Assembly: GCA_011523615.1 (NCBI GenBank)
Contig: WTGJ01000027.1
Coordinates: forward strand, 583,333-647,332
DNA: 64,000 nucleotides
Reading direction: 5' to 3'
Origin: Chloroflexota bacterium
GTDB lineage: Bacteria > Chloroflexota > Anaerolineae > Aggregatilineales > Phototrophicaceae
A program made the translations under genes and the position numbers. Below are positions 1,434-20,274 of the stretch, piece by piece. Position 1 is the first letter of the stretch; each line of letters begins with the position of its first letter. Below the pieces are notes generated by a model. That model was not told the DNA's origin. It did no database searches and was given only the letters and a program-made list of their open reading frames with translations.

Positions 1434-3425
1434 TCATTGCGGCGCGCCAGGCTCAAGGAAGTATGGATCCAACTCGGCCAATATCGAGGAAACATCACTG
1501 GGCAGTGGCTGCAGGGGGATGTACGCTTGCCATAGGTCACTGCGGTCATCCAACTGATGGATGGGCTCTTCTTGAAACCAGCGGCGTACTTGTAGATCCA
1601 ACATCTCATCCACTTCGAGCGGGTTGAGGAAACGAGTGCTGCGCTCTTCAATTCTGAAAATGAAATGACCCCATTCCGTCTCGATCGGGCCCACCAGGTC
1701 GCCCGGTTCAGCACTGAAGATGACTTCTTCGACCGCAAGCGGAAGCTCGCCCGGTAGAATGCTGCCACTCTTTGCACCTTGGGTGAAATGAGCCAACGTA
1801 TCGCCATCCTGCCCCCGGGCGCTAGGATCGAGGGAATGCTCGCGGGCCAATGGTGTGAATTCTTCTCCCGCGAGCAGACGAGTCAATATGGCGGCTGCTT
1901 CCTCATGTGAGCGGGCAGTGATGTGCCGCGCGCGTAGCGCAAATGCCTCATCCCGCAGATCCGTAACCTGCATCAGCAATGAAGCTCCTTCATAGGCGAA
2001 GGGACCCAAGATATCCCCCGTTTCACTCACGAATATCGCTTGGATGATTTCTTCGGGGAATCGTTCCGTGTCCGGCCGAAGGTAGCCGATGCTGCCCCCG
2101 CTGCGGATGGTCTCTGTCAACAAAGTGTGTTCCCGAACGAGCTGGGTAAAATCCGCACCTTCGCGCAAATCTTGTCGCAGTTGCTCTGCCAATTGGGTGG
2201 ATTCAACCAGTAAAAGGCGCAACTGTGCCAGAATGTTCCGCGGTCGTTCCGCTGTGATCTCAAAGATATGGTGACCAAAACGAGAAGCCAACGGCCCGAT
2301 CCGTTCGCCAACAGATGCCGCAAAAATCGCCTCTTCCAATTCCGGTAACAATTGCGAGCGAGTCAAGTAGCCAATCTCTCCACCACGGCTTGAAGTGAGC
2401 GGATCGGTAGAATGGACTCGAGCCAGCTCGGCAAAATCTGCTCCCGCGAGTAGCTCCAGGCGCAAAGCTTCGGCCTCTTCGTAACTGGCTACCTGAATGT
2501 GCCGCAATTTCAGTTGGGGAGCGGCTTCCATGGCCTGAGCAATGTGATGGCCCAGGTCCGTTTCGATGGGTCCGATCCACGAATCCAGCTCTGCTGCAAA
2601 CAGAGCCTGGTCCAACTCAGCAGGCAGAATGCCACGGGTGATGAAGCCCAATTCGCCGCTGTTGCCATAAGTCCCTTCATCCGCACCGAACTGTAGCATC
2701 ACAGTGGTGAACGCTTTCCCCGCCTGGAGCGCAGCCAGGGCAGCCGCCATGTCTGCTTCATGTTCGGTACGGATCTGACGGGCACGAACGACAGGAACCT
2801 CACTGATCGCTGGCAATTCCAAACGGACTGCATCCCTGAGCTCTGCAAACCAGATTTGTGCCCGGATTGAGTCCGCCAGTGCAGTTTCAGTGATGCCAGA
2901 GTAGAAGGTAGCTTCCTCGCTGAAATGAGAGCGCGCAGCCGCAAATTCCTCGGAATCTTGACATCCTCCGGCAGTAGACCAGGCGATCAATTCAGACCAG
3001 GCGGCCAACCAATCGCAATCATCCAGGTTGAATCCTCTTTCGTTGGCGGAGTGGCGGATGAATGCCTCACGGATCAACCGCAACCAGACCCAATCGGCAA
3101 ACTCATCCTCCTGCTGCAGGTGATTCACAATGGTGTACACCGTTTCGCGATGAGGGTTCTGCGGGTCGTCCCATTGCAATACGAACTCACCTTCCATTGC
3201 GACGAGCTGTGCCAAAGACCGCCAGAACAACCAGCGCTCAAATCGTACACGCGACCAAAAGTCACCCAACGTCACAATCTCTTCTCCGTATTGTGCGATG
3301 ACGGTACTCGCATGGAGATCATTGGGAGGCGGGTGGATGTAATAACCATCCTGGGCCAAGATCCCAGTCAAACCGATGAAGATCACCAACCACAGGCTTG
3401 GGTTGCGTTTCATAAAATGAGTCAC
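1434..3425 (-). CDS. Peptidyl-prolyl isomerase/foldase with four parvulin domains
   Basis: This is a 663-residue secreted or membrane-anchored foldase of the SurA/PrsA/PpiC type. A hydrophobic N-terminal segment (about residues 10-24) looks like a signal peptide or anchor. A SurA_N-like helical region follows, then four consecutive rotamase repeats at about 212-300, 305-393, 397-491 and 496-595. Each repeat has the pattern of a basic opening strand, an F..L...(H/S) helix, a GG.(I/L)G(Y/F) turn and a GP..(S/T).(F/W)GHHI-type end. Repeat III is the most divergent (QLRLLLVES where RHI is expected). The first start is a GTG seven bases after the upstream transglycosylase stop; an ATG four codons in (3413) is equally possible. 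It probably folds exported proteins and is co-transcribed with the lytic transglycosylase. Confidence 0.85.
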   Translation of the reverse strand: MTHFMKRNPSLWLVIFIGLTGILAQDGYYIHPPPNDLHASTVIAQYGEEIVTLGDFWSRVRFERWLFWRSLAQLVAMEGEFVLQWDDPQNPHRETVYTIVNHLQQEDEFADWVWLRLIREAFIRHSANERGFNLDDCDWLAAWSELIAWSTAGGCQDSEEFAAARSHFSEEATFYSGITETALADSIRAQIWFAELRDAVRLELPAISEVPVVRARQIRTEHEADMAAALAALQAGKAFTTVMLQFGADEGTYGNSGELGFITRGILPAELDQALFAAELDSWIGPIETDLGHHIAQAMEAAPQLKLRHIQVASYEEAEALRLELLAGADFAELARVHSTDPLTSSRGGEIGYLTRSQLLPELEEAIFAASVGERIGPLASRFGHHIFEITAERPRNILAQLRLLLVESTQLAEQLRQDLREGADFTQLVREHTLLTETIRSGGSIGYLRPDTERFPEEIIQAIFVSETGDILGPFAYEGASLLMQVTDLRDEAFALRARHITARSHEEAAAILTRLLAGEEFTPLAREHSLDPSARGQDGDTLAHFTQGAKSGSILPGELPLAVEEVIFSAEPGDLVGPIETEWGHFIFRIEERSTRFLNPLEVDEMLDLQVRRWFQEEPIHQLDDRSDLWQAYIPLQPLPSDVSSILAELDPYFLEPGAPQ

Positions 3426-3431
3426 CGAGCG

Positions 3432-5810
3432 TTAGTTCTCCCCATAGAGGCTGCGATAAATGAAATGTTGGGCGTAGATATTCTGGACGTATTTGCGAGT
3501 GCTGTCGATCGTGATCGTTGTGATGAAAGCTTCGGGGTCATCCCCGGCCAAAGCCAGCCAATCGGCAGCCCTGCCCGGTCCTGCGTTGTAACCAGCCAAG
3601 GCGGCAAAGGCATTCTGCTCAAAGGCGTCCAGTTGTTCCGCGAGGTAATATGTGCCAAATTCGATGCTCGCATAAGGGCGGAACAGATCGCTGTGTTCAT
3701 AGTCCGCCCAGGCGAGCCTACCAGCGATGTAATCTCCCGTACTCGGGATGACTTGGGTCAGGCCTTTTTCTCCCGCAGCAGCCGTTGCATTGGCATCGAA
3801 CAAGCTCTCTTGCCTGATCAGTGCAAACATCAACAACGGGTCAATGCCGCGCTGGTCGGTCGCTGTCAGGACCGGTTGCAAATAATATATGGGATAGCGC
3901 AGCCGGGCGATGTAGGGCGGTGCCTCCAATGTGCTGACGCCGGCAAGGCGAATCAGCTGAGCTGCGGCAACCAAAGAAGGGTAATAGACGGTTTTCTCGC
4001 TGAGAGCCACAGCCAACTGATAGGATTTCAGTGGATCGCCACCATTGGCATTGACCAGAGCCAAAAACTCATCCTGTGCTGCGGCGAACTCCCCCAAAGC
4101 CCACAATTCGTTTCCCCGCAAGTATCGTAAGTCGTTCTTCAATGGATCGGACAAGGGCCAAAGTGCGCCGCTCTGTGTCAAATCCCATCGCTCACGCAGC
4201 CACTTCTCCGCCTTCTCTCTTTCGCTTTCTACATGAAAGGTGAACACATAGCCCAAGGGTTTGCTGAAAGGTTCTCGCTCCGCCGCCAGATCCGTCGAGC
4301 GTGCGGCAAAATACCCATCTGGCGATGCGGTAGCGGCCATTGACCAAGCCAGATTCGGATCCCGCCCGCTCAATGAAGGGTGTTTGCCCAGCCATAACCA
4401 GGCTTCTGCCCGCAATTCGGCATTGGATGCTTCTGTCAACGACGAAAAAATCTCCGCTGCGTTATCCAGGTCCCCGCTCTTTACAGCAGCGGCGGCGGCC
4501 AGCGCCAGGCCACTTTCCGCTTGCTCGCTGTTGGGATACATCTGATGCAAACGCAAAAATACCTGTAGAGAAGCTGCCGTTTTACCGCTGGTGCCATACA
4601 AATACCCTGCTCGCCAAAGAGCTTCCGGCGCCGCAGATGCCAAATTGGGGTAGTCATCCGCAATGGACAAATACCGTTTGATGGCCGTGTCGATATTCCC
4701 GGCCAGAAAATGGGTGCGCCCTTGTTCCAACAGGGCCTCACCCAACCATTGGGAATGAGGATGCACGGCCGCCATGATCTGAAAGGTCAGCTGGGCGTTG
4801 GGAAAATCCCCCAATTCCCGCTGGCTGCGGCCGATCATGAGATATTGTTCTGCCGTGATCGTCTGACCGGATGTAATTTGCTCCAATGCGTTCAGCGCAC
4901 TGGCATAGTCTCCGCTGTGAAAACTGATCCTCGCCCGTGTTTCTCCCGGAATCTCGATACCATTTTGATTCAAAGCAACGATTGCCAAATAAGCATGGTA
5001 AGTTTCTGGATATTCGAGGGTGATCTTGCGCAATCGCTCGATTCCATCATCAAACAAACCATTTTCCAGGGTTGCGCTGGCGGCCAAATACTCCATTTCA
5101 GCGCGATAGGGTGCATTGCGGGCAACCGACAATATCTCATCATATTGTTGCACCGCCAGTAAGTATTCGCCGGCTTCCCAATGCAGACGGGCCAGCTTTT
5201 CTCGTAGGATGAGCTGTGGTATGAGAGAACGGTGGTGTTGCAATGCGAGGTGATAGAACTCGATCGCCTGTTCCCGCTCGTTCAAAGCCAACCGGGCGTC
5301 GGCAATTTTCTCCCATACGAAACTGGCCAATACACTGGATCCAGCGGCGAGATATCGTTCGTAATCGGCAATGGCGAGTTTCCATAATTCCAACGCGGAA
5401 GCTGCTTTGCCTCTCAGGTAATGAGCTTGTGCAATCCGGGCATCTGTCGGAAATTCAGCGATGAAGAGCGAAAGAGCGGTACGCGCAATCACATACTGAC
5501 CCATTTGATTGCCCACTTGACCCAAAGCGAATGCCGCATCTGCCCGCTGCTCCAGCGACAATACCGCTTTCGGTTGCTCCAATAACTCGTTGTAGATTTC
5601 GGCAGCGTTTTCGTAATAGCCCAATAGCACCCACTCACGAGCCTCTGCCAAAGCGGCGGCCGGGTCGATTTTTTGGGCGGGCTGAATCGTGGACGCCTGG
5701 GCGACGATTGGCACCTCGGAGGTGACCACGACGTACCTAACGGGGGCCGCTTCGATCACACTGCATCGAAAAGACAAAAGAGCCAAAATGAGGGGGAGAT
5801 ATCTATGCAT
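3432..5810 (-). CDS. slt: Soluble lytic murein transglycosylase with TPR-like superhelix
   Basis: The 792-residue protein cleaves peptidoglycan between MurNAc and GlcNAc outside the cytoplasmic membrane. It starts with a signal peptide (about residues 1-22), continues with roughly 550 residues of TPR-like helical repeats (YENAAEIYNELLEQ, AIKRYLSIADDYPNL and similar), and ends with an SLT catalytic domain from about residue 645. The catalytic glutamate is in IRQES (E668), followed by GEKGLTQVIPST and the AGYNAGPGR motif, all standard for the Slt70/MltC family. The ATG at 5810 is preceded by GGGGGAG-like purines on the minus strand. The stop lies just before the parvulin gene, so the two likely form one envelope-maintenance transcript. 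Domain calls are secure; the number of TPR units was not counted. Confidence 0.93.
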   Translation of the reverse strand: MHRYLPLILALLSFRCSVIEAAPVRYVVVTSEVPIVAQASTIQPAQKIDPAAALAEAREWVLLGYYENAAEIYNELLEQPKAVLSLEQRADAAFALGQVGNQMGQYVIARTALSLFIAEFPTDARIAQAHYLRGKAASALELWKLAIADYERYLAAGSSVLASFVWEKIADARLALNEREQAIEFYHLALQHHRSLIPQLILREKLARLHWEAGEYLLAVQQYDEILSVARNAPYRAEMEYLAASATLENGLFDDGIERLRKITLEYPETYHAYLAIVALNQNGIEIPGETRARISFHSGDYASALNALEQITSGQTITAEQYLMIGRSQRELGDFPNAQLTFQIMAAVHPHSQWLGEALLEQGRTHFLAGNIDTAIKRYLSIADDYPNLASAAPEALWRAGYLYGTSGKTAASLQVFLRLHQMYPNSEQAESGLALAAAAAVKSGDLDNAAEIFSSLTEASNAELRAEAWLWLGKHPSLSGRDPNLAWSMAATASPDGYFAARSTDLAAEREPFSKPLGYVFTFHVESEREKAEKWLRERWDLTQSGALWPLSDPLKNDLRYLRGNELWALGEFAAAQDEFLALVNANGGDPLKSYQLAVALSEKTVYYPSLVAAAQLIRLAGVSTLEAPPYIARLRYPIYYLQPVLTATDQRGIDPLLMFALIRQESLFDANATAAAGEKGLTQVIPSTGDYIAGRLAWADYEHSDLFRPYASIEFGTYYLAEQLDAFEQNAFAALAGYNAGPGRAADWLALAGDDPEAFITTITIDSTRKYVQNIYAQHFIYRSLYGEN

Positions 5811-10545: not shown

Positions 10546-12627
10546 TCAGACTTTGTTCTTTTCCGCGAGATTGAGGGTGATGATTTGATCCGTCAATTGG
10601 GCCGGGACTTTTTCGTAATGATCAAAACTCATTTCATAGTGTCCCCTACCCCCCGATAGCGAACGCAAATCCGTGCCATAGCGAAGCATTTCTGCGAGAG
10701 GGACTTTGGCGTGTACGATGGAACGATTGCCATCGTTTTCGATGCCCTGCACTCTGCCACGCCTCGTATTCAAGTCTCCCATTACATCGCCCAGCAAAGA
10801 TTCCGGCACGGTGATGCTCAGATCCATGATCGGTTCCAAGAGCACCGGGGCCGCGCTCTTGAAGGCGATCTTGAAACTCTCGCGACCGGCAATCTGAAAG
10901 GCGATATCTTTGGAATCAACCGGGTGCTCTTTACCGTCAAACACTTCTGCTTTGACGTTGACCACCGGGAACCCGGCAATGACGCCTTCCGGTAAGACCT
11001 GGCGAATGCCTTTTTCTATGGAAGGTAAGAATTGTTGGGAAATGGCACCCCCAAAGATATTGGTTTCATAGATGAAGGCTTCTTCTTCACTCGGGATGAC
11101 GCGCAAAGAAACCTCGCCGAACTGACCTGCGCCGCCGGTTTGTTTCTTGTGACGATACGTAGCCTGCGCTTCTTCTGTGATCGTTTCACGGTAAGGAACT
11201 TTGGGAATGTTCATATCCAGGGCCACCCCCAGTTTTTGTGCACGGGAGAGGGTGATCTGGATGTGTGTTTCCCCCATGCCTTCCAACCATGTCTGGCGAA
11301 CATCAGCGTTGTATCGCCAGCGCAGCGTTGGGTCAGAATTGCACAGGCTGTTCAACACGCTTCCCATTTTTGTGCTATCCGCCTGCGTTTTTGGTTCCAA
11401 TGCCACGATGTACAAAGGGTCCGGGAAGCTCGGTGAGCGGATTTGGAGCAAGCTTTCACGGTGGGAAAACGTATCATTGGTGAAGGTGTCGTTGAGTTTG
11501 GTCACAACACCGATATCTCCAGCGCACAAACGATCCATCGCAATCTGCTCTTTGCCCCGCATCACATACAAATTGCCGAAACGCTCTTCTTCTTCTCGGT
11601 TGGCATTGAAGTATCGCTGGTCGGCAGCCATATGGCCGGAAAAGACCCGCAAAAACGTCAAATTGCCTACGAACCGATCATTGATGGATTTGAAGACATA
11701 AGCGGCCAAAGGACCGTCGTCCGTCAATGGTGTGGGCAGGATTGGATCTTCATCGGTTGAATCTTCCGCCTGAGTGAGAATCCTGCGTCCTTCAGGACTG
11801 GGCACATAAGCGGCGATGGCTTCCAGCAAGGGAATGGTGCCAATATTGCTGGTTGCCCCGGTCACAAAGACGGGCACGACCGGAGAAGATGCATCTTTTG
11901 CCGCCAAGCGCATCCCGCTCCTGATCTCATCTTCGCTCAGGGTCTCTTCTTCGAAGTATTTCTCAATCAACGCATCATCTGCTTCCGCCGCTACTTCGAT
12001 GAGATTCAGCCTTGCTTCTTCCACCGCATCTTGCAGCTCGGCTGGCAATTCACTGCGTTCTGCGCCATCCCCCAAGTAAGCCTGTTGGGTGACCAGATTG
12101 ACCAATCCCTTAAAATCGGCTTCCTCACCCACGGGAAGGACCACGGGCACAAAATTCGCATCCGCAAAGGCTTCTCGCAGGCCGGATAAAGCCCGATCAA
12201 AATCCGCATTCTCCCGATCGAACTTGTTGATGTTGACCAAGATCGGGATCTGCTCTGCACGAGCCAATTCCCAGACCATTTCTGTTCCGACCTGCACGCC
12301 GGAAACGGCATCTACGATGATCAGGACGGCATCCGTTGCCCGAATTGCATTCTTCACATCGCCCTGAAAATCAGAGAAGCCGGGCGTATCCAATAAGTTG
12401 ATTTTCACATCACCGATTTCCACTGGAATCAATGACGTATTCAAAGATACGTTTCGCTCCTTTTCTTCGTCATCCCAATCAGAAACGGTGTTGCCTTGCT
12501 CAATGGTTCCCAATCGGTTGGTCGCGCCGGTGGCAAAAAGAAAAGCTTCACATAAAGAAGTCTTACCCGATCCCTGATGACCGACCACCGCGACATTTCT
12601 CAATGATTCTGTAGGATACACCTTCAT
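10546..12627 (-). CDS. fusA2: Elongation factor G-like GTPase (EF-G2 type)
   Basis: This 693-residue translational GTPase has the full EF-G domain order but belongs to the EF-G2 branch. Its P-loop is GHQGSGKT instead of the AHIDAGKT of translocating EF-G, switch I reads EKERNVSLNTS, and G3 and G4 are DTPGFSDF and NKFDRE. Domains II-V follow, with the domain IV/V segments GGRGHYEMSF and RRGRVQGIEN near the end. In other bacteria EF-G2 proteins bind ribosomes and GTP but their role is poorly defined; it is probably not the essential translocase. The start chosen is the ATG at 12627 (MKVYPTESLRN), because the frame upstream to 12717 lacks homology. It diverges from the Flp pilin gene. Confidence 0.9.
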   Translation of the reverse strand: MKVYPTESLRNVAVVGHQGSGKTSLCEAFLFATGATNRLGTIEQGNTVSDWDDEEKERNVSLNTSLIPVEIGDVKINLLDTPGFSDFQGDVKNAIRATDAVLIIVDAVSGVQVGTEMVWELARAEQIPILVNINKFDRENADFDRALSGLREAFADANFVPVVLPVGEEADFKGLVNLVTQQAYLGDGAERSELPAELQDAVEEARLNLIEVAAEADDALIEKYFEEETLSEDEIRSGMRLAAKDASSPVVPVFVTGATSNIGTIPLLEAIAAYVPSPEGRRILTQAEDSTDEDPILPTPLTDDGPLAAYVFKSINDRFVGNLTFLRVFSGHMAADQRYFNANREEEERFGNLYVMRGKEQIAMDRLCAGDIGVVTKLNDTFTNDTFSHRESLLQIRSPSFPDPLYIVALEPKTQADSTKMGSVLNSLCNSDPTLRWRYNADVRQTWLEGMGETHIQITLSRAQKLGVALDMNIPKVPYRETITEEAQATYRHKKQTGGAGQFGEVSLRVIPSEEEAFIYETNIFGGAISQQFLPSIEKGIRQVLPEGVIAGFPVVNVKAEVFDGKEHPVDSKDIAFQIAGRESFKIAFKSAAPVLLEPIMDLSITVPESLLGDVMGDLNTRRGRVQGIENDGNRSIVHAKVPLAEMLRYGTDLRSLSGGRGHYEMSFDHYEKVPAQLTDQIITLNLAEKNKV

Positions 12628-12737
12628 GAAACAGACTCTTTCTGAAAATCGTGAAGGGATTGTAAATACATCGTGGGCCTCATGCAAGGTTGGCGGAAGA
12701 GATCGCCTTCCGGCCACAGTTTGCCTACGGTCGCGGT

Positions 12738-12967: not shown

Positions 12968-15900
12968 ATGCAAACCAATGATTTTCTGTTTCGTGGAAAC
13001 CTGGAAGAGATTGATCCCGATGTCGCAGAATTGGTGCGCCTGGAAACGGCCCGACAGTCACAAACCCTCATCATGATCCCCTCAGAAAGCACCGTACCGG
13101 AGGCAGTGCGAGAAGCGGTCGGCTCTTCGTTTCACAATATCTATGCTGAGGGTTATCCGCTGGAAGCCACGCGGCGCCTTTCGCAAGCAGAGATATTGGA
13201 TTACGGCGCCAGACTGACGGAATACCGCCGCCGCTCTGATCTGCGCTATTACAAAGGGACGGAATACGCCAACATCGTCGAAGCCCTGGCTCGGCGTCGA
13301 GTGGCGGAATCTTTTGCTACCCAGGAGCACCCCGCAGATTCGCTCTATGTCAACGTCCAGCCGCTCTCCGGTGCCCCGGCGAACAGCGCGGTTTATACCG
13401 CTTTATTGGACGTGGGCGATACCGTCATGGGCATGGACCTCATCACCGGCGGTCACTTAACCCACGGCAGTCCGGTGAATCGCAGTGGCTTGCAATACCA
13501 CATCATCAGTTATGGATTGAATCCCGAAACCGAACGGCTGGATTACGAACAAATTCGTGAGCTGGCGCTAACCCACCGACCGAAGATGATCATTGCCGGT
13601 TATTCGAGTTACCCCTTCACACCGGATTGGCATCAATTTCGGGCCATCGCCGATGAAGTCGGGGCATTTCTCCTCGCCGATGTCGCCCATGTCGCCGGAT
13701 TGATCCTGGCTGATTTATACCCCAATCCGGTCGGCATCGCGGATGTCGTCACTTTCACCACGCACAAGTCTCTCCACGGCCCTCGTGGCGCTGTGGCGAT
13801 CACCCATCAACGAGCGCTGGCACGCAAGATCGATCGGGCGGTTTTTCCGGGGGAGCAAGGCGGGCCACATGTCAACAGCATCACTGCTTTAGCCGTCGCC
13901 ATGAGGATCGCTGCAACGCAGCAGTTCAAGGACTTGCAACAGCAGATTGTGGACAACGCCGCCACAATGGCGGATCGCTTGCGCGAGCGGGGGATTCGCA
14001 TCCCGCATGGCGGCACGAACACACACCTCTTCCTCGTGGATTGCAAGACACAAATCGGCGCTGATGGTACGGCGTTGAGCGGGGATATGGCGGCACGAAT
14101 CCTGGATTTGGTCGGCATCGTCGCCAATCGCCAGACCATCCCCGGCGACCGCAGCGCTTTGCGCCCTTCCGGTTTGCGTTTCGGGACGAATTGGATCAGC
14201 CAACGGGGCGCGAGGCGTGATGAAGTGCTCGGCATCGCCGATGTCATTGCCGACTTAATCACTGCTTCTCGGCCCTACAGTTTGACTGGCAGAATTCGGC
14301 GTCAGGCGCGGGCCAAGGTTGATTTTGAAACATTGCGAGATTGCCGCGACCGCATCAGAAGAATCGCGGCCAGTCTGGGGTCCGACACCCGATCCGAGCG
14401 CGTGGGTTATCCCCACAACAACGACCCTGCGGAAGTTGAGGCTGATTCCGTTTGTTTGCGCATCAGCGGTAAAACGGCCAGGGCCTTTTTGCATACCGTA
14501 TTGACCAGCAACGTAGCCGATTTGGAAGACGGACAGACTCAAGTCACCGCATTGAAGAGCTCATCTGGGGATGTGCTTGCTCGAGGATTATTGCAACGGC
14601 GAGGAGATGAATACGTCTTCCAAACGGATGAGAAGGGGTCGCTGACAACATTTTGGTTGCGTGCCCTCTCCGATAATTTGACCATCATGGATGAAACCGA
14701 TGTGTATGCCAATGCGCCGGGACCCGTCGTCATCGAGGAAATCACTGCTCCGGCAACCAAACTGCAAGCCAGTGGGCAGCCCTTCGCCGTGAAAGCATAT
14801 GGCATCGCAGCACCCTATACAGCCGACCTTCCCGAATTGCCCCGTTTTGCTTGGCAGGAAGAAGATAGCGACGAATGGATGGTCACGCCGATCCATCCAT
14901 TGCATCAACAAATCGGCGCGCGCATGGCGCCATTCGCTGGTTACGAAATGCCGCTTTGGTATTCATCGGTTGCCGATGAACATCGGGCAGTGCGCGAAAA
15001 CTGTGGCATTTTTGATGTCGCACACATGGGTGTGTATCGTTTCAAGGGTCCTGGCGCAGAGAGAACGCTGGATGCCTTGACCACCAATGATGTTCGACAG
15101 CTGCGCGTGGGGACTTCCCATTATACTTTTTTGCTCGATGTCGATGGTCAGCCTTTGGATGACCTCTTGATCTATCGTTTGGGCGCAGAAGAATTCTTAG
15201 CGGTGGTGAATGCCGCGAATGATGCCAAGAATTGGGCTTGGATCAACGCGGCGATCGCCGGTGAAGTGAGGATCGATGAAGCACACCCCAAGCGACGTTT
15301 GGAAAGCGGTCTTCAGACGGACTTGCAGGACCTCCGCGCCACAACGAGTGGATCCAGTCGTTTGGTGGATCTGGCCCTCCAGGGACCCAAAAGCAGAGAG
15401 CTTCTTCTCTCTCTCGGTACGGAGGAAGAAACCCGAAGACGATTGATGAAGTTGCCCTGGGCCGGCATCGCTCCCATGAGGCTGGGCGACTTCGAACTCT
15501 ACGTCTCTCGCACCGGTTATACCGGCGAGCGCATCGCCTACGAGTTGTTTGTGCACCCGGAACAGGCCAGCTCCCTGTTTCAGACGCTCCTGGAAGCCGG
15601 CGCTACTCCCTGTGGTTTGGCAGCGCGAGATAGTTTGCGCACCGAAGCCGGGCTACCGCTCTACGGGCAGGAACTGGCCGGCCCTTTGTCTTTAAACCCT
15701 GCGGATGCTGGGTTCAGTTCGTATGTAAAGCTCTACCAGCCATTTTTTGTGGGCAAGTCTGCATTCATCGCATCGGAGCAACGAAGGGATGCGAAAATCG
15801 TCCGCTTCCGCAGCCCTCAGCGGGGCATGAGGCCGGCCCATGGCGGGGATCCTCTCGTGGATGCCAGGGGGCGTGTGGTGGGCAACGTCACCAGCTGTAG

Positions 15901-16090
15901 CGTCATGCCGGATGGTCACTACCTCGGTCTGGCGTTTGTCAAGCAGGATGCCGCCAAGGTAGGAAGTACTTTGGGGGTCATCGCTGGCAGCGGCCGGGCG
16001 AAGAGCCAAAGCTTACAGGACTTGCGCCCGGGTACCCGCCTGACCATTCCGCAACCGGTGGAGATATTGAGGAGATTCCCGGCGCGGTAA
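12968..16090 (+). CDS. glyA-gcvT: Fused serine hydroxymethyltransferase and glycine-cleavage T protein
   Basis: This single 1040-residue frame joins two one-carbon enzymes. Residues about 10-470 are serine hydroxymethyltransferase (glycine + methylene-THF to serine), with SGAPANSAVY, ADVAHVAGL and the PLP lysine K267 in TTHKSLHGPRG. It carries roughly 20 extra residues between YAEGYP and RYYKG compared with usual GlyA. Residues about 490-580 resemble a degenerate GcvT N-terminal segment (ISGKTARAFLHTVLTSNV...). Residues about 638-1035 are a full aminomethyltransferase, with MAPFAGYEMPLWY, FDVAHMG, the DDLLIYR segment and SRTGYTGE. The ATG follows AAAGGTGA by about five bases. The fusion faces gcvPB, gcvPA and gcvH, which provide the other parts of the same pathway. 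The frame is uninterrupted, so the fusion is real rather than a missed stop. Confidence 0.93.
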   Translation: MQTNDFLFRGNLEEIDPDVAELVRLETARQSQTLIMIPSESTVPEAVREAVGSSFHNIYAEGYPLEATRRLSQAEILDYGARLTEYRRRSDLRYYKGTEYANIVEALARRRVAESFATQEHPADSLYVNVQPLSGAPANSAVYTALLDVGDTVMGMDLITGGHLTHGSPVNRSGLQYHIISYGLNPETERLDYEQIRELALTHRPKMIIAGYSSYPFTPDWHQFRAIADEVGAFLLADVAHVAGLILADLYPNPVGIADVVTFTTHKSLHGPRGAVAITHQRALARKIDRAVFPGEQGGPHVNSITALAVAMRIAATQQFKDLQQQIVDNAATMADRLRERGIRIPHGGTNTHLFLVDCKTQIGADGTALSGDMAARILDLVGIVANRQTIPGDRSALRPSGLRFGTNWISQRGARRDEVLGIADVIADLITASRPYSLTGRIRRQARAKVDFETLRDCRDRIRRIAASLGSDTRSERVGYPHNNDPAEVEADSVCLRISGKTARAFLHTVLTSNVADLEDGQTQVTALKSSSGDVLARGLLQRRGDEYVFQTDEKGSLTTFWLRALSDNLTIMDETDVYANAPGPVVIEEITAPATKLQASGQPFAVKAYGIAAPYTADLPELPRFAWQEEDSDEWMVTPIHPLHQQIGARMAPFAGYEMPLWYSSVADEHRAVRENCGIFDVAHMGVYRFKGPGAERTLDALTTNDVRQLRVGTSHYTFLLDVDGQPLDDLLIYRLGAEEFLAVVNAANDAKNWAWINAAIAGEVRIDEAHPKRRLESGLQTDLQDLRATTSGSSRLVDLALQGPKSRELLLSLGTEEETRRRLMKLPWAGIAPMRLGDFELYVSRTGYTGERIAYELFVHPEQASSLFQTLLEAGATPCGLAARDSLRTEAGLPLYGQELAGPLSLNPADAGFSSYVKLYQPFFVGKSAFIASEQRRDAKIVRFRSPQRGMRPAHGGDPLVDARGRVVGNVTSCSVMPDGHYLGLAFVKQDAAKVGSTLGVIAGSGRAKSQSLQDLRPGTRLTIPQPVEILRRFPAR

Positions 16091-16106: not shown

Positions 16107-17597
16107 TCAGTTGCCTGCCGCTGCAGAGGGGGGTAAGGCCGGCTTACAGCACAGCACCAACTCTTTCGCAGCCTTCACTTCATCCAGGCGTTTGACGGGC
16201 ATGCGATGGGGGGCGGTCAAAAGCAGGTCGGGCTCCTCACGCGCTTCCCTGGCAATTTCCTTCATCGCATCAATGAAACGATCCAGCGTCGCTTTATCCT
16301 CACTCTCTGTGGGTTCGATCATGAGCGCTTCGGGTACGATGAGCGGGAAATAATTGGTCGGCGGATGAAAACCATAATCCATCAATCGCTTGGAAATGTC
16401 GAGGGCGTGGACTTCCTCTGCCCCTCGTATCTGTCCCGAAATGACACATTCATGGGCACACATTCTTGGATAAGGGATCAGGTAGGTATCTGCCAGATTC
16501 GCTCGGATGTAGTTGGCGTTGAGGACGGCGTGTTTGCTCACTTCATGCAAACCACTGGCGCCATAAATGCTCATATAGGCAAAAGCGCGGATGTGCATGC
16601 CAAAATTGCCGTGAAATGCCTTGAGGCGGCCAATGGAATGTTCCGGCATTTGCAAACTGTAGCGCGGGGCTTCCTCATCCTCATCGGCTCCTTCATCGAC
16701 GACCACGATCGGGCCCGGTAAAAAGGGCGCCAATTTTTCATTGACCGCGACGGGGCCGCTGCCCGGCCCACCACCACCGTGTGGCGTCGACATGGTCTTG
16801 TGCAAATTGTAGTGCATCACATCGAAACCGAGCTCGGCGGGTTTGACGACGCCCATCAAGGCATTCATGTTGGCGCCATCCATGTACATCAAACCACCAC
16901 AATTGTGGACGGCTTCGACGACTTCCAACACATGAGCTTCGAACAAACCCAAGGTGCTGGGGACTGTGATCATCATCCCCGCTACCTGGTCATTGCAGGC
17001 CGCACGGAGGGCGTTCAGGTCGACATCGCCATTCTCATCGGACGGTAACTCCACGGCACGATAACCCGCCATGGTGACGGTGGCAGGGTTGGTGCCATGC
17101 GCACTGTTGGGTACCAGGACGATGTCCCGTTGGGTATCCCCTCGCTGTTGATGATAGGCCCGAATCATGAGGATGCCGGCCAATTCGCCTTGCGCACCCG
17201 CCGCTGGTTGCAAGCTGACCGCTGTCATGCCACTGAGTTCGGCCAACCAATCCTGCAGTTGAAACATCAAAGCCAGCGCACCCTGGGAGCCTTCGTCGTC
17301 TGTGAGCGGGTGCAGGGCAGCCAAACCGGGCAATCGGGCCACATCTTCATTGAGCCTGGGGTTGTATTTCATCGTGCAGGAACCCAGTGGATATAGGTCC
17401 AAATCAATCGCGTGGTTCAATTGGCTCAAGCGCGTAAAATGCCGCACCACTTGCAACTCCCCCAGTTCGGGAAGAGCCAGGTCATCACGCAGCAGCGCTG
17501 CATCCATTTCGCTGAGTGGGACGTCCAGCTCTGGCAAGGTGATCCCTTTGCGATCGGGGACGCTCTTGTCATACAGGGTAGGTTCCAGCGCTTTCAT
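16107..17597 (-). CDS. gcvPB: Glycine dehydrogenase (decarboxylating) subunit 2
   Basis: The 496-residue protein is the PLP-carrying half of the two-subunit P protein, which decarboxylates glycine and passes the aminomethyl group to the lipoyl arm of GcvH. The PLP-site motif HYNLHKTMSTPHGGGGPGSG is intact, with the lysine after the histidine as cofactor ligand. SAHGTNPATVTMAGY and GEYDLNAL-like segments are also typical. Its ATG overlaps the gcvPA stop by four bases (17594-17597), indicating translational coupling and one-to-one subunit supply. The gene converges on the glyA-gcvT fusion with a 16-base gap. Confidence 0.96.
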   Translation of the reverse strand: MKALEPTLYDKSVPDRKGITLPELDVPLSEMDAALLRDDLALPELGELQVVRHFTRLSQLNHAIDLDLYPLGSCTMKYNPRLNEDVARLPGLAALHPLTDDEGSQGALALMFQLQDWLAELSGMTAVSLQPAAGAQGELAGILMIRAYHQQRGDTQRDIVLVPNSAHGTNPATVTMAGYRAVELPSDENGDVDLNALRAACNDQVAGMMITVPSTLGLFEAHVLEVVEAVHNCGGLMYMDGANMNALMGVVKPAELGFDVMHYNLHKTMSTPHGGGGPGSGPVAVNEKLAPFLPGPIVVVDEGADEDEEAPRYSLQMPEHSIGRLKAFHGNFGMHIRAFAYMSIYGASGLHEVSKHAVLNANYIRANLADTYLIPYPRMCAHECVISGQIRGAEEVHALDISKRLMDYGFHPPTNYFPLIVPEALMIEPTESEDKATLDRFIDAMKEIAREAREEPDLLLTAPHRMPVKRLDEVKAAKELVLCCKPALPPSAAAGN

Positions 17598-18940
17598 GCC
17601 CCCACCTCCGCCAATCGTTCGACGAATTCATCGATTTCTTCTTTGCGATTCATTTCCGTACAACAGACCAACATATGATCTGCCATTTCTGGAAAATCCT
17701 TGCCGAGATCATAACCACCAATGATGCCATGTTCGATCAGTGCTTCATTGATTTCTCTGACCGGACGAGGACAAATGAGCACAAATTCATGGAAAAACGG
17801 CGAGGATTGATTGACCTGATAACTGGGCAATTCTTGCAATTTCCGCGCCGCATAGTGGGCTTTCTGGTAACACAGCGTAGCCACCTGTCGTAAACCATGC
17901 TTACCCAGCGCCGCCAGATAGACGCAGGCAGCCAAAGACATCAAGCCCTGATTGGTGCAAATGTTACTGGTGGCTTTTTCGCGGCGGATGTCCTGTTCGC
18001 GCGGCCTCAAGGTCATCACGTAGGCCAACCTGCCATCTGCATCCTCCGTTTCGCCGATGATCCGCCCGGCGATGCGTCGGACATATTTTTGCTTGGTGGC
18101 AAAGTAACCCAGATATGGGCCGCCAAAACTCAGCGGTACTCCCAACGGTTGACCGTCTCCCACCACGATATCGGCCCCCAATTCGCCGGGTGACTTGAGC
18201 AATGCCAATGCGGTTGGGTTCGCAACCACGACGAAGAGAGCGCCGACGGAATGGGCTGCTTCCGCATAGGCAGCGATCGGCTCGATTTCACCGAAGAAAT
18301 TGGGGTAAGCGACGGCGAGCATCGCAGTATCTTCATCGAGCAATGCCAGCAGGCCCTGGTGGTCATTTCGTTCAACTGCACCGTCATCGCCATCGATTCG
18401 TACAGAACCTCCCTGATGGTAGGTGCGCACCACTGCTCGATATTGGGGGTGGATGTTGGGACTCAAGATGACTTTGTTCCGCCGGCCACGGGCTAGCGCC
18501 CTGGTCATGGTGACTGCTTCGGCCAGGCTGGTCGCACCGTCATAATGGCTGGCATTGGCCGCATCCATTCCGGTCAAAGCGCACATCATGCTTTGATATT
18601 CATAGGTGGCCTGGAGCGTTCCCTGGGTCATTTCCGGTTGATACGGCGTATAAGCGGTGAGGAATTCACCTCTTTGTATGAGATGATTGACGATGGGAGG
18701 AATGAAATGATGATACGCTCCTGCTCCGCGAAAGAGGGCAAAATCGGCCGCGCTTTCATTGGATTCCGCCAGGGCTGTCATGATTTCGGTGACTTCCAAC
18801 TGGCTTTGCGGCTCCGGTAAATCCAATGTGGGGAAGCGCAAGGCGGCCGGGACTGCATCAAACATGGCTTCCATGCTTTGGATGCCGATCGCGGCCAGCA
18901 TCTCCTGGCGTTCCGCTTCCGTATGGGGGATGTAAGACAT
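17594..18940 (-). CDS. gcvPA: Glycine dehydrogenase (decarboxylating) subunit 1
   Basis: This 448-residue protein is the non-PLP half of the split P protein. It has the family opening MSYIPHTEAERQEML and the segments FRGAGAYHHFIPP, YTPYQPEMTQGTLQ and NASHYDGATSLAEA that are standard for GcvPA, and ends with the RPVREINEAL...GYDLGKDFPE region. Length is as expected for the split form found in many Gram-positive, Thermotoga and Chloroflexota-type genomes. It sits four bases after the gcvH stop and overlaps gcvPB, so all three are surely one operon. Confidence 0.96.
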   Translation of the reverse strand: MSYIPHTEAERQEMLAAIGIQSMEAMFDAVPAALRFPTLDLPEPQSQLEVTEIMTALAESNESAADFALFRGAGAYHHFIPPIVNHLIQRGEFLTAYTPYQPEMTQGTLQATYEYQSMMCALTGMDAANASHYDGATSLAEAVTMTRALARGRRNKVILSPNIHPQYRAVVRTYHQGGSVRIDGDDGAVERNDHQGLLALLDEDTAMLAVAYPNFFGEIEPIAAYAEAAHSVGALFVVVANPTALALLKSPGELGADIVVGDGQPLGVPLSFGGPYLGYFATKQKYVRRIAGRIIGETEDADGRLAYVMTLRPREQDIRREKATSNICTNQGLMSLAACVYLAALGKHGLRQVATLCYQKAHYAARKLQELPSYQVNQSSPFFHEFVLICPRPVREINEALIEHGIIGGYDLGKDFPEMADHMLVCCTEMNRKEEIDEFVERLAEVGA

Positions 18941-18944
18941 CAGT

Positions 18945-19334
18945 TCAACGAGTTTCCAGGTAAGCGGCGTATTCCGCAGCGTTCATGAGCGCATCCAAAT
19001 TGCTGGCATCTTCGATGCTCATTTGGATGATCCAGCCCTTATCGTAGGGATCGGCATTCACGATCTCGGGTTCATCTTCCAATTGTTCATTCACCGCGGT
19101 CACCGTACCCTGGATATGGGCGTACAAATCAGAAGCAGCTTTTACAGATTCCACCATGCCGAAATTGTCATCCGGACCATAATCTTCACCCACTTCGGGC
19201 AATTCAAAATACACGATGTCATTCAACATATCTTGTGCATAATCCGTGATGCCGATGGTTGCCGTATCCCCCTCGATGCGCAGCCATTCATCAGTTTTGG
19301 CATACCGCAACTCTTCCGGCAAGTTGTAGACCAT
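18945..19334 (-). CDS. gcvH: Glycine cleavage system H protein
   Basis: GcvH is the lipoylated shuttle between the P, T and L proteins. The 129-residue product has the lipoyl-attachment motif VESVKAASD with K65 as the modified lysine, and the usual opening of LRYAKTDEWLRIEGDTATIGITDYAQ. The start at 19334 is chosen because a very strong GGGAGG lies about five bases upstream on the minus strand and it matches the normal protein length. The frame remains open to 19697 but that extension runs antisense to the SCO gene and resembles nothing. First gene of the gcvH-gcvPA-gcvPB operon. Confidence 0.97.
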   Translation of the reverse strand: MVYNLPEELRYAKTDEWLRIEGDTATIGITDYAQDMLNDIVYFELPEVGEDYGPDDNFGMVESVKAASDLYAHIQGTVTAVNEQLEDEPEIVNADPYDKGWIIQMSIEDASNLDALMNAAEYAAYLETR

Positions 19335-19360
19335 AGGTTCCCTCCCTGTTCTGGCTGGCA

Positions 19361-19389
19361 ATTGTAGCGAAACCGGCCTGCTGGTGCAA
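19361..19389 (-). promoter_or_regulatory. Candidate promoter of the gcvH-gcvPA-gcvPB operon
   Basis: On the minus strand TTGCAC (19389-19384) and TACAAT (19366-19361) are separated by exactly 17 bases. Transcription would begin near 19354, about 20 bases before the gcvH ATG at 19334 and just upstream of its strong GGGAGG site. The leader is far too short to contain a glycine riboswitch. Confidence 0.45.
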
Positions 19390-19424
19390 TGTAATCCTGC
19401 ATACCATAACCCATGAATCTTAAG

Positions 19425-19430
19425 TAGAAT
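19425..19430 (+). promoter_or_regulatory. Candidate -10 box of a leaderless SCO transcript
   Basis: TAGAAT at 19425-19430 lies seven bases before the SCO ATG (19438), so the predicted transcription start falls on or next to the start codon. No ribosome-binding purine run is present and no convincing -35 was found. Confidence 0.3.
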
Positions 19431-19437
19431 ATCTGCC

Positions 19438-20274
19438 ATGAAACAAGAAGATGAATCGAAGCCGTTCTGGAAACAACCCACCAATCTCATCTTTCTGCTC
19501 AGTCTGTTGATTGCTCTGCTAGCATTGGTAATCCTACGTTTCAGCGCGGAGCCATCCTCTGGCAATGGCGCCGAACCATCCGCAACCGATGCACAGGGAG
19601 GGACCGTCATCGCCATCGTATCCGGCACCCCCATACATGCCGATCCAGGTGTCAGCCGCGGTGCCATCGACGTCGAACCAGCCATCGTTCTGCCCAATTT
19701 CAGGCTGCATTCTGGACCGCAGCATGAAGTCCAACTCAGCGATTTCAGGGGGCGGTACGTTTTGCTGTTTTTTGGCTACACCCATTGCCCCGATGTCTGC
19801 CCACTGACGCTGGATGCGTTTCGCCGGATTCAGGATGCTTTGGCGGAGGAGCTGCAGGATGACATCGTCTTCCTGTTCGTGACTCTGGATCCCGAACGAG
19901 ATACGCCTGAACGTCTATCAGAGTACATTTCTGCACTTGACATCCCGATCGTGGCGCTGTGGGGAAACGAGGAAGAGATCGCCAACCTGGGCCAGCCATT
20001 TGGCCTGGAGTGGGACATCATCGGACCCAGTGAGACAGCGTCGATGCCGCGATCCGGCGAACATCAAACCCACATGGTTCAACATGAAGGGGATTATTTG
20101 ATCGATCATACTTCATCACGTTACCTGATCGATCCTGCGGGCCGGTTGATCCGCCGCTACCTGTACCACCCCGATCCGGGCACATCCGCAGCGTGGATGC
20201 TCGCCGATTTGTTGCCAATATTGCAAGGCATCAATCAAGATAGAAGCGCGGCAAACGCGCCGAGATGGCAGTGA
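19438..20274 (+). CDS. SCO1/SenC family copper chaperone, membrane-anchored
   Basis: The 278-residue protein has one N-terminal membrane anchor (about 16-34), a linker rich in Ser/Gly/Ala, then a thioredoxin-like SCO domain facing outward. The copper ligands are the CPDVC pair (C117, C121) and the distal histidine in IDHTSSRYLID (H224). LDPERDTPERL is also typical. SCO proteins deliver copper to the CuA site of cytochrome oxidase or act as thiol reductases. Just before the distal histidine there is a short His/Met-containing insert (EHQTHMVQHEGD) that might add copper affinity. The last 44 bases overlap the converging alanine racemase gene. No oxidase gene is nearby, but a copper-type ATPase is encoded at 25479. 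Confidence 0.92.
   Translation: MKQEDESKPFWKQPTNLIFLLSLLIALLALVILRFSAEPSSGNGAEPSATDAQGGTVIAIVSGTPIHADPGVSRGAIDVEPAIVLPNFRLHSGPQHEVQLSDFRGRYVLLFFGYTHCPDVCPLTLDAFRRIQDALAEELQDDIVFLFVTLDPERDTPERLSEYISALDIPIVALWGNEEEIANLGQPFGLEWDIIGPSETASMPRSGEHQTHMVQHEGDYLIDHTSSRYLIDPAGRLIRRYLYHPDPGTSAAWMLADLLPILQGINQDRSAANAPRWQ

Follow-up and report, generated by a model that had tools for sequence, protein, structure and literature searches.

A gene in a 64,000-nucleotide stretch of DNA (the window) from a Chloroflexota bacterium of the Anaerolineae type probably encodes a bifunctional one-carbon enzyme. Serine hydroxymethyltransferase (SHMT) was joined in it to the T-protein of the glycine cleavage system (GcvT). 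The segment between the two parts is a trimmed tandem duplicate of GcvT (GcvT'), which probably acts as a structural spacer or as a docking module. We infer both enzyme activities, the structural role of the middle and any kinetic advantage of the fusion from comparisons of sequences and predicted folds.

Fusion gene and its enzyme parts

The fusion gene occupied positions 12968-16090 of the forward strand, and all of its features lie on that strand. It was a single open frame of 1040 amino acids with an ATG start and no internal stop. A ribosome-binding-like AAAGGTGA was located immediately 5' of the frame start. The preliminary description had reported an uninterrupted 1040-codon SHMT/GcvT frame, and this was confirmed. 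The same frame was open in many independent genomes, which ruled out an assembly artefact or a missed stop. The three-part layout proposed there was also recovered, with SHMT at residues 1-440 (12968-14287), a half GcvT at about 494-592 (14447-14743) and a complete GcvT at 638-1040 (14879-16087). The order of the parts was kept in relatives.

The SHMT part matched PF00464 with an E-value of 4e-119 and 398 bits (curated cut-off 27), and NF000586 with 421 bits (curated cut-off 335). In the alignment, the active-site residues S39, Y59, E61, Y94, Y95, S134, H163, D238, H241, K267 and R404 were kept. The PLP lysine, Glu53, Tyr51/60/61, His122, Asp197, His200 and Arg357 were all found in the window SHMT by the membership test. 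K267 (13766-13768), which had been named as the PLP Schiff-base lysine, aligned to Lys226 of the B. stearothermophilus enzyme, in 78 of 78 members of the clade. Active-site residues were kept in both enzyme parts of the fusion, apart from the tetrahydrofolate (THF)-contacting Asn341 of SHMT, which was replaced by Gln389. Gln was present at this site in 11 of 78 fused-type members and Asn in 67 of 78; the position is a conserved THF contact and no strict defining residue, and Gln is a conservative change.

The stretch between YAEGYP and RYY (residues 65-92, 13160-13243) was 28 residues long in all 78 fused-type SHMTs, compared with 1-2 residues in 12 of 12 Chloroflexota GlyA sequences. The insert noted earlier after YAEGYP was therefore real, but it comprised about 27 extra residues and not about 20. 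The GTNWIS segment, described as altered from the usual GTPA, was unusual in part only. The W was a trait of the clade (77/78), and P was the usual residue (68/78) where the window had Asn, which made the Asn of GTNW an individual oddity within the clade. In the SHMT tree, the fused-type sequences formed a clade of their own (100), on a long branch away from Chloroflexota GlyA; this tree and the GcvT tree discussed below were quick searches with SH-aLRT support only, without bootstraps.

The C-terminal GcvT matched the Pfam GCV_T model with an E-value of 1.4e-76, covering profile positions 2-251 of 255. Alignment to 1yx2, 1woo and 3a8i showed that D731-D732 (15158-15163) and the RTGYTGE block, with E854 at 15527-15529, were kept, and the folate-binding domain was complete. 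The barrel matched GCV_T_C (PF08669) weakly, with 21.8 bits where the cut-off was 25.9, and the region aligned through to T-protein structures.

Genome context and distribution

A search of the window genome, which was 94% complete, detected a single SHMT and a single GcvT; a YgfZ-like protein was the only other match. A separate glyA had been raised as a question in the preliminary description, and the fusion was the sole SHMT detected. Lipoamide dehydrogenase and FolD were also encoded in this genome. The remaining glycine cleavage genes were located next to the fusion on the reverse strand. They were the convergent neighbour gcvPB (16107-17597; NF003346, 1.3e-211), gcvPA (17594-18940; NF001696, 3e-182) and gcvH (18945-19697; NF002270, 9e-49, residues 124-248), where the GcvH part corresponded to the last ~127 codons of the ORF. 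The TTG start called for this gcvH ORF was about 120 codons too early. In one relative (L055), the fusion, gcvH, gcvPA and gcvPB lay head to tail in one co-directional run, and gcvH adjoined the fusion in two others (L082 and L083). No glycine riboswitch or other RNA regulator was matched by Rfam near the fusion and its neighbour genes. On the other side, the fusion gene was adjoined by a gene for a divergent EF-G of the NF009381 subfamily (10546-12717, reverse strand), and the same neighbour was seen in relatives L010, L012, L013, L014, L015 and L057. Elsewhere in the genome (G000:C19:433223-436093, outside the window), folD and the gene for a 324-aa YgfZ-like protein of the GcvT fold lay ~1.5 kb apart on opposite strands.

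The same gene order, which the preliminary description had suggested looking for in related genomes, was common there. In the window's family, 57 of 61 sampled genomes had an SHMT match in an open frame of at least 1042 codons. The four exceptions had a 429-aa frame (G544), a frame of 819 (G559), two pieces (G521) and a fragment (G547). Across the class, about half of 298 genomes had a fused-type match as judged from E-values, and the fusion was also present in further Chloroflexota families. One order-level relative without a fused match (G565) had a stand-alone 372-aa GcvT instead. A contig scan with window-specific peptides found one relative. Among plasmid records, none matched at least 80% of the query, and glyA and gcvT were separate genes in those listed. 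At one locus (L100/L104, G417:C66), a 1042-codon frame ending in GcvT-type sequence had a 247-codon neighbour, in which another GcvT-like match was found. Its product is possibly a sarcosine-oxidase or demethylase-like enzyme.

Homology of the middle segment

The middle segment gave a separate match when PF01571 was searched against the window's genome (profile 51-137, E 1.4e-5). The same profile positions were matched in most of 40 related genomes, and each of 13 short middles searched on its own was detected, at positions about 51-138. In hhalign, the short-middle profile matched the fused GcvT profile with a probability of 98.7-99 and E-values of 3e-16 to 7e-18; 20 column-shuffled profiles and one reversed middle profile gave a probability of about 2 or less. 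The top structural relatives of the short-middle profile were aminomethyltransferases (1yx2, E 1.4e-11). A stand-alone model of residues 486-592 was of moderate confidence (pLDDT 68, pTM 0.63) and showed a strand-helix-three strands-helix layout. Foldseek placed GcvT structures first, the best being 1yx2 (E 2.6e-5, TM 0.68), and it also listed MnmE chains (9hiq) as weak matches (TM 0.51, rmsd 5 Å or more). A full-length model built from two sequences was uninformative (pLDDT 31). The GcvT-like character claimed for the middle was thus upheld by profile, sequence and predicted fold, including the fold of residues 490-580 on which the claim had been made to depend. A chance resemblance was ruled out by the profile comparison, the shuffled controls, the Pfam matches of the 13 members and the fold search.

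The absence of the catalytic DD, also pointed out earlier, was verified. A538-R539 (14579-14584) occupied the position of the DD of GcvT and of long GcvT', and the folate domain was incomplete by profile and alignment. The middle segment is homologous to GcvT and is no GcvT enzyme. Its most constant motif, WLRxLSDGY..(F)D, was conserved in all forms and differed from any GcvT catalytic site. In the window, it began as WLRALSD (residues 563-569, 14654-14674).

Duplication and trimming of the middle segment

A graded series of middles was found among the relatives. Some genes had about 1200 codons and encoded SHMT, a near-complete GcvT' folate domain with the catalytic DD, and then GcvT. In L078, which is outside the window's class and is represented by a second copy (L101) in the SHMT tree, the middle covered GcvT profile positions 1-299 with the DD. 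In L048, L049, L073, L074, L075 and L077, it covered roughly 36-296, all with the DD. In intermediate relatives, the linker measured 228-291 residues and contained the first half together with the closing KPYFIG motif; several still had the DD. In the short forms, the linker was 186-226 residues long (200 in the window) and the DD was lost; most kept a KPYFIG-like stretch just before GcvT. L057 was long by linker length, yet its expanded linker had no full GcvT', and it was counted as short. The window linker (residues 593-637, 14744-14878) contained KAYGIA (14792-14809), a decayed form of KPYFIG, the motif with which the GcvT' folate domain of long forms closes. The second half of the folate domain, including the RTGYTGE block, was deleted. 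Because the first half and the KPYFIG-like end were recognisable and the interior was gone, this meant internal deletion and no domain growth.

In the GcvT tree, nine full-length middles formed one clade (99), which joined the fused and split GcvTs (100). GcvT' was sister to fused GcvT (100), apart from stand-alone GcvT. Since the full-length middles grouped with the fused GcvTs, the middle is a tandem duplicate of fused GcvT. Full and reduced forms were interleaved in the SHMT tree. Reduction of the middle took 5 changes by plain parsimony, or 9 reductions when losses alone were allowed and regrowth was barred. These results indicated that a tandem GcvT duplicate was repeatedly trimmed to the same core. 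The earlier idea that the middle was a relic was correct, as some relatives carry the duplicate at full length. The series documents with unusual clarity how a duplicated enzyme domain was cut repeatedly to the same non-catalytic core. In L051 (G162, 2100-5706), a long-form gene was broken inside GcvT' into two frames, of 661 and 558 codons, that overlap. The split may be genuine or may come from a sequencing error.

Selection on the middle segment was seen in eight close members of a related genus, where SHMT had a dN/dS of 0.023. The middle (0.08) was close to GcvT (0.079), and the linker that follows the middle reached 0.22; the values are those of the related genus and not of the window's own. 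The short middle core is under purifying selection in that genus, and the earlier label "degenerate" was misleading. In another family (f9), the gene was split exactly between the middle and GcvT, and the middle stayed on the SHMT protein. SHMT-middle and GcvT were separate in members L038-L044 and L080, the two frames overlapping slightly in several genomes, and in G073 they were located on different contigs. The middle is probably a structural or docking module on the SHMT side and no folate-holding relic.

Discussion

T-protein converts the aminomethyl-lipoyl group of GcvH to methylene-THF, and SHMT joins methylene-THF to a second glycine to give serine. In the proposed mechanism, the C-terminal T-protein would take the aminomethyl group from lipoyl-GcvH and release 5,10-methylene-THF and ammonia, and the N-terminal SHMT would combine methylene-THF with a second glycine into serine, or work in the reverse direction. 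One polypeptide would then hold the second half of the conversion of 2 glycine to serine, CO2 and NH3, and such coupled turnover is likely. The tandem GcvT duplicate would have arisen at the base of the fusion clade, and its middle copy would have lost catalysis and most of the folate pocket before becoming a spacer or docking module of the SHMT side. Joining SHMT and GcvT would raise the local concentration and could permit transfer without release. The channelling put forward in the preliminary description is plausible, and the fusion may allow the two reactions to proceed in close co-operation. The covalent linkage is dispensable, because the gene is split in f9. A more specialised proposal is a dedicated glycine-to-serine synthase, in which methylene-THF is handed from T-protein to SHMT and the trimmed duplicate and the SHMT insert form the docking or channel surface. 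We put it forward as a tentative and rather doubtful extension. If it were true, a GcvT copy that was once catalytic would have been turned, repeatedly, into a building element of the protein.

The role of the middle can be read in two other ways. The preliminary description had suggested that it holds THF, which was unsupported because the folate domain was reduced to its first half, with the DD lost and the RTGYTGE half deleted. A folate-binding role could still be pictured if the middle paired with its counterpart on an adjacent SHMT subunit, in the manner of the half-size N-terminal domain of MnmE/TrmE, and either stored folate or carried it from one active site to the other. This fits with SHMT as an obligate dimer or tetramer, with the half GcvT fold of the middle and the MnmE chains in its Foldseek list, and with the purifying selection on its core. 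However, the short forms lost both the DD position and the remainder of the folate domain, the conserved positions belong to the WLRxLSDGY motif with no known folate contacts, and the MnmE matches were weak. We regard such a role as unlikely. It is comparably improbable that the middle is a non-functional leftover retained merely for continuity of the reading frame. Its recurrent shrinkage and loss of the DD would be expected of a leftover, as would the faster change that it showed, compared with SHMT, from family to family. Against this, the middle was more constrained than the adjoining linker in the related genus, the same ~100-residue core survived several independent deletions, and it was kept in split genomes, where loss from the C-terminus would be simple.

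The SHMT part might itself have become a related PLP aldolase or transaldolase that acts on another substrate. Its long branch to GlyA, the insert beside the active site, GTPW for GTPA, a replacement of His92 by Leu and a distant match to fluorothreonine transaldolase point in this direction. We consider this very improbable, since the catalytic residues were all kept, the NF000586 score exceeded the curated cut-off, and the protein was the sole SHMT in its genome, joined to GcvT and adjoining gcvP/gcvH. The bifunctional SHMT-GcvT enzyme with a structural middle is the reading that we prefer.

During glycine cleavage, free methylene-THF breaks down to formaldehyde (PMC7227101). Whether SHMT receives methylene-THF directly from the glycine cleavage system is of importance to photorespiration and to engineered reductive glycine pathways. 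A natural fusion makes this question directly testable when, as here, no other copy of either enzyme is detected in the cell, and the split relatives are ready-made controls.

No description of an SHMT-T-protein fusion was found in the open-access literature, subscription papers being mostly outside the search, and the architecture may already be present, without comment, in automated annotation. The multifunctional folate enzymes DHFR-TS, FTCD and MTHFD1 likewise hold consecutive folate-dependent steps on one chain, but the joining of SHMT to T-protein was unmatched in the open-access literature searched. The fusion adds to this group, and its fossil domain is unusual. Compared with GlyA, the SHMT part fits the same family profile and has the main residues for PLP and substrate, and differs in the 27-residue insert, GTPW/GTNW for GTPA, the fusion to GcvT and a clade of its own. 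The C-terminal part has the DD and RTGYTGE of a complete glycine cleavage T-protein (PF01571 and PF08669). In contrast to that protein, it is fused behind SHMT, its barrel matches the model weakly, and it is preceded by an internally deleted duplicate. The GcvT fold is also re-used without aminomethyl transfer in YgfZ/Iba57 and in the N-domain of MnmE, which has a half-size version of it. Here, the re-used fold is a lineage-specific duplicate within the same polypeptide, with several stages of its reduction preserved.
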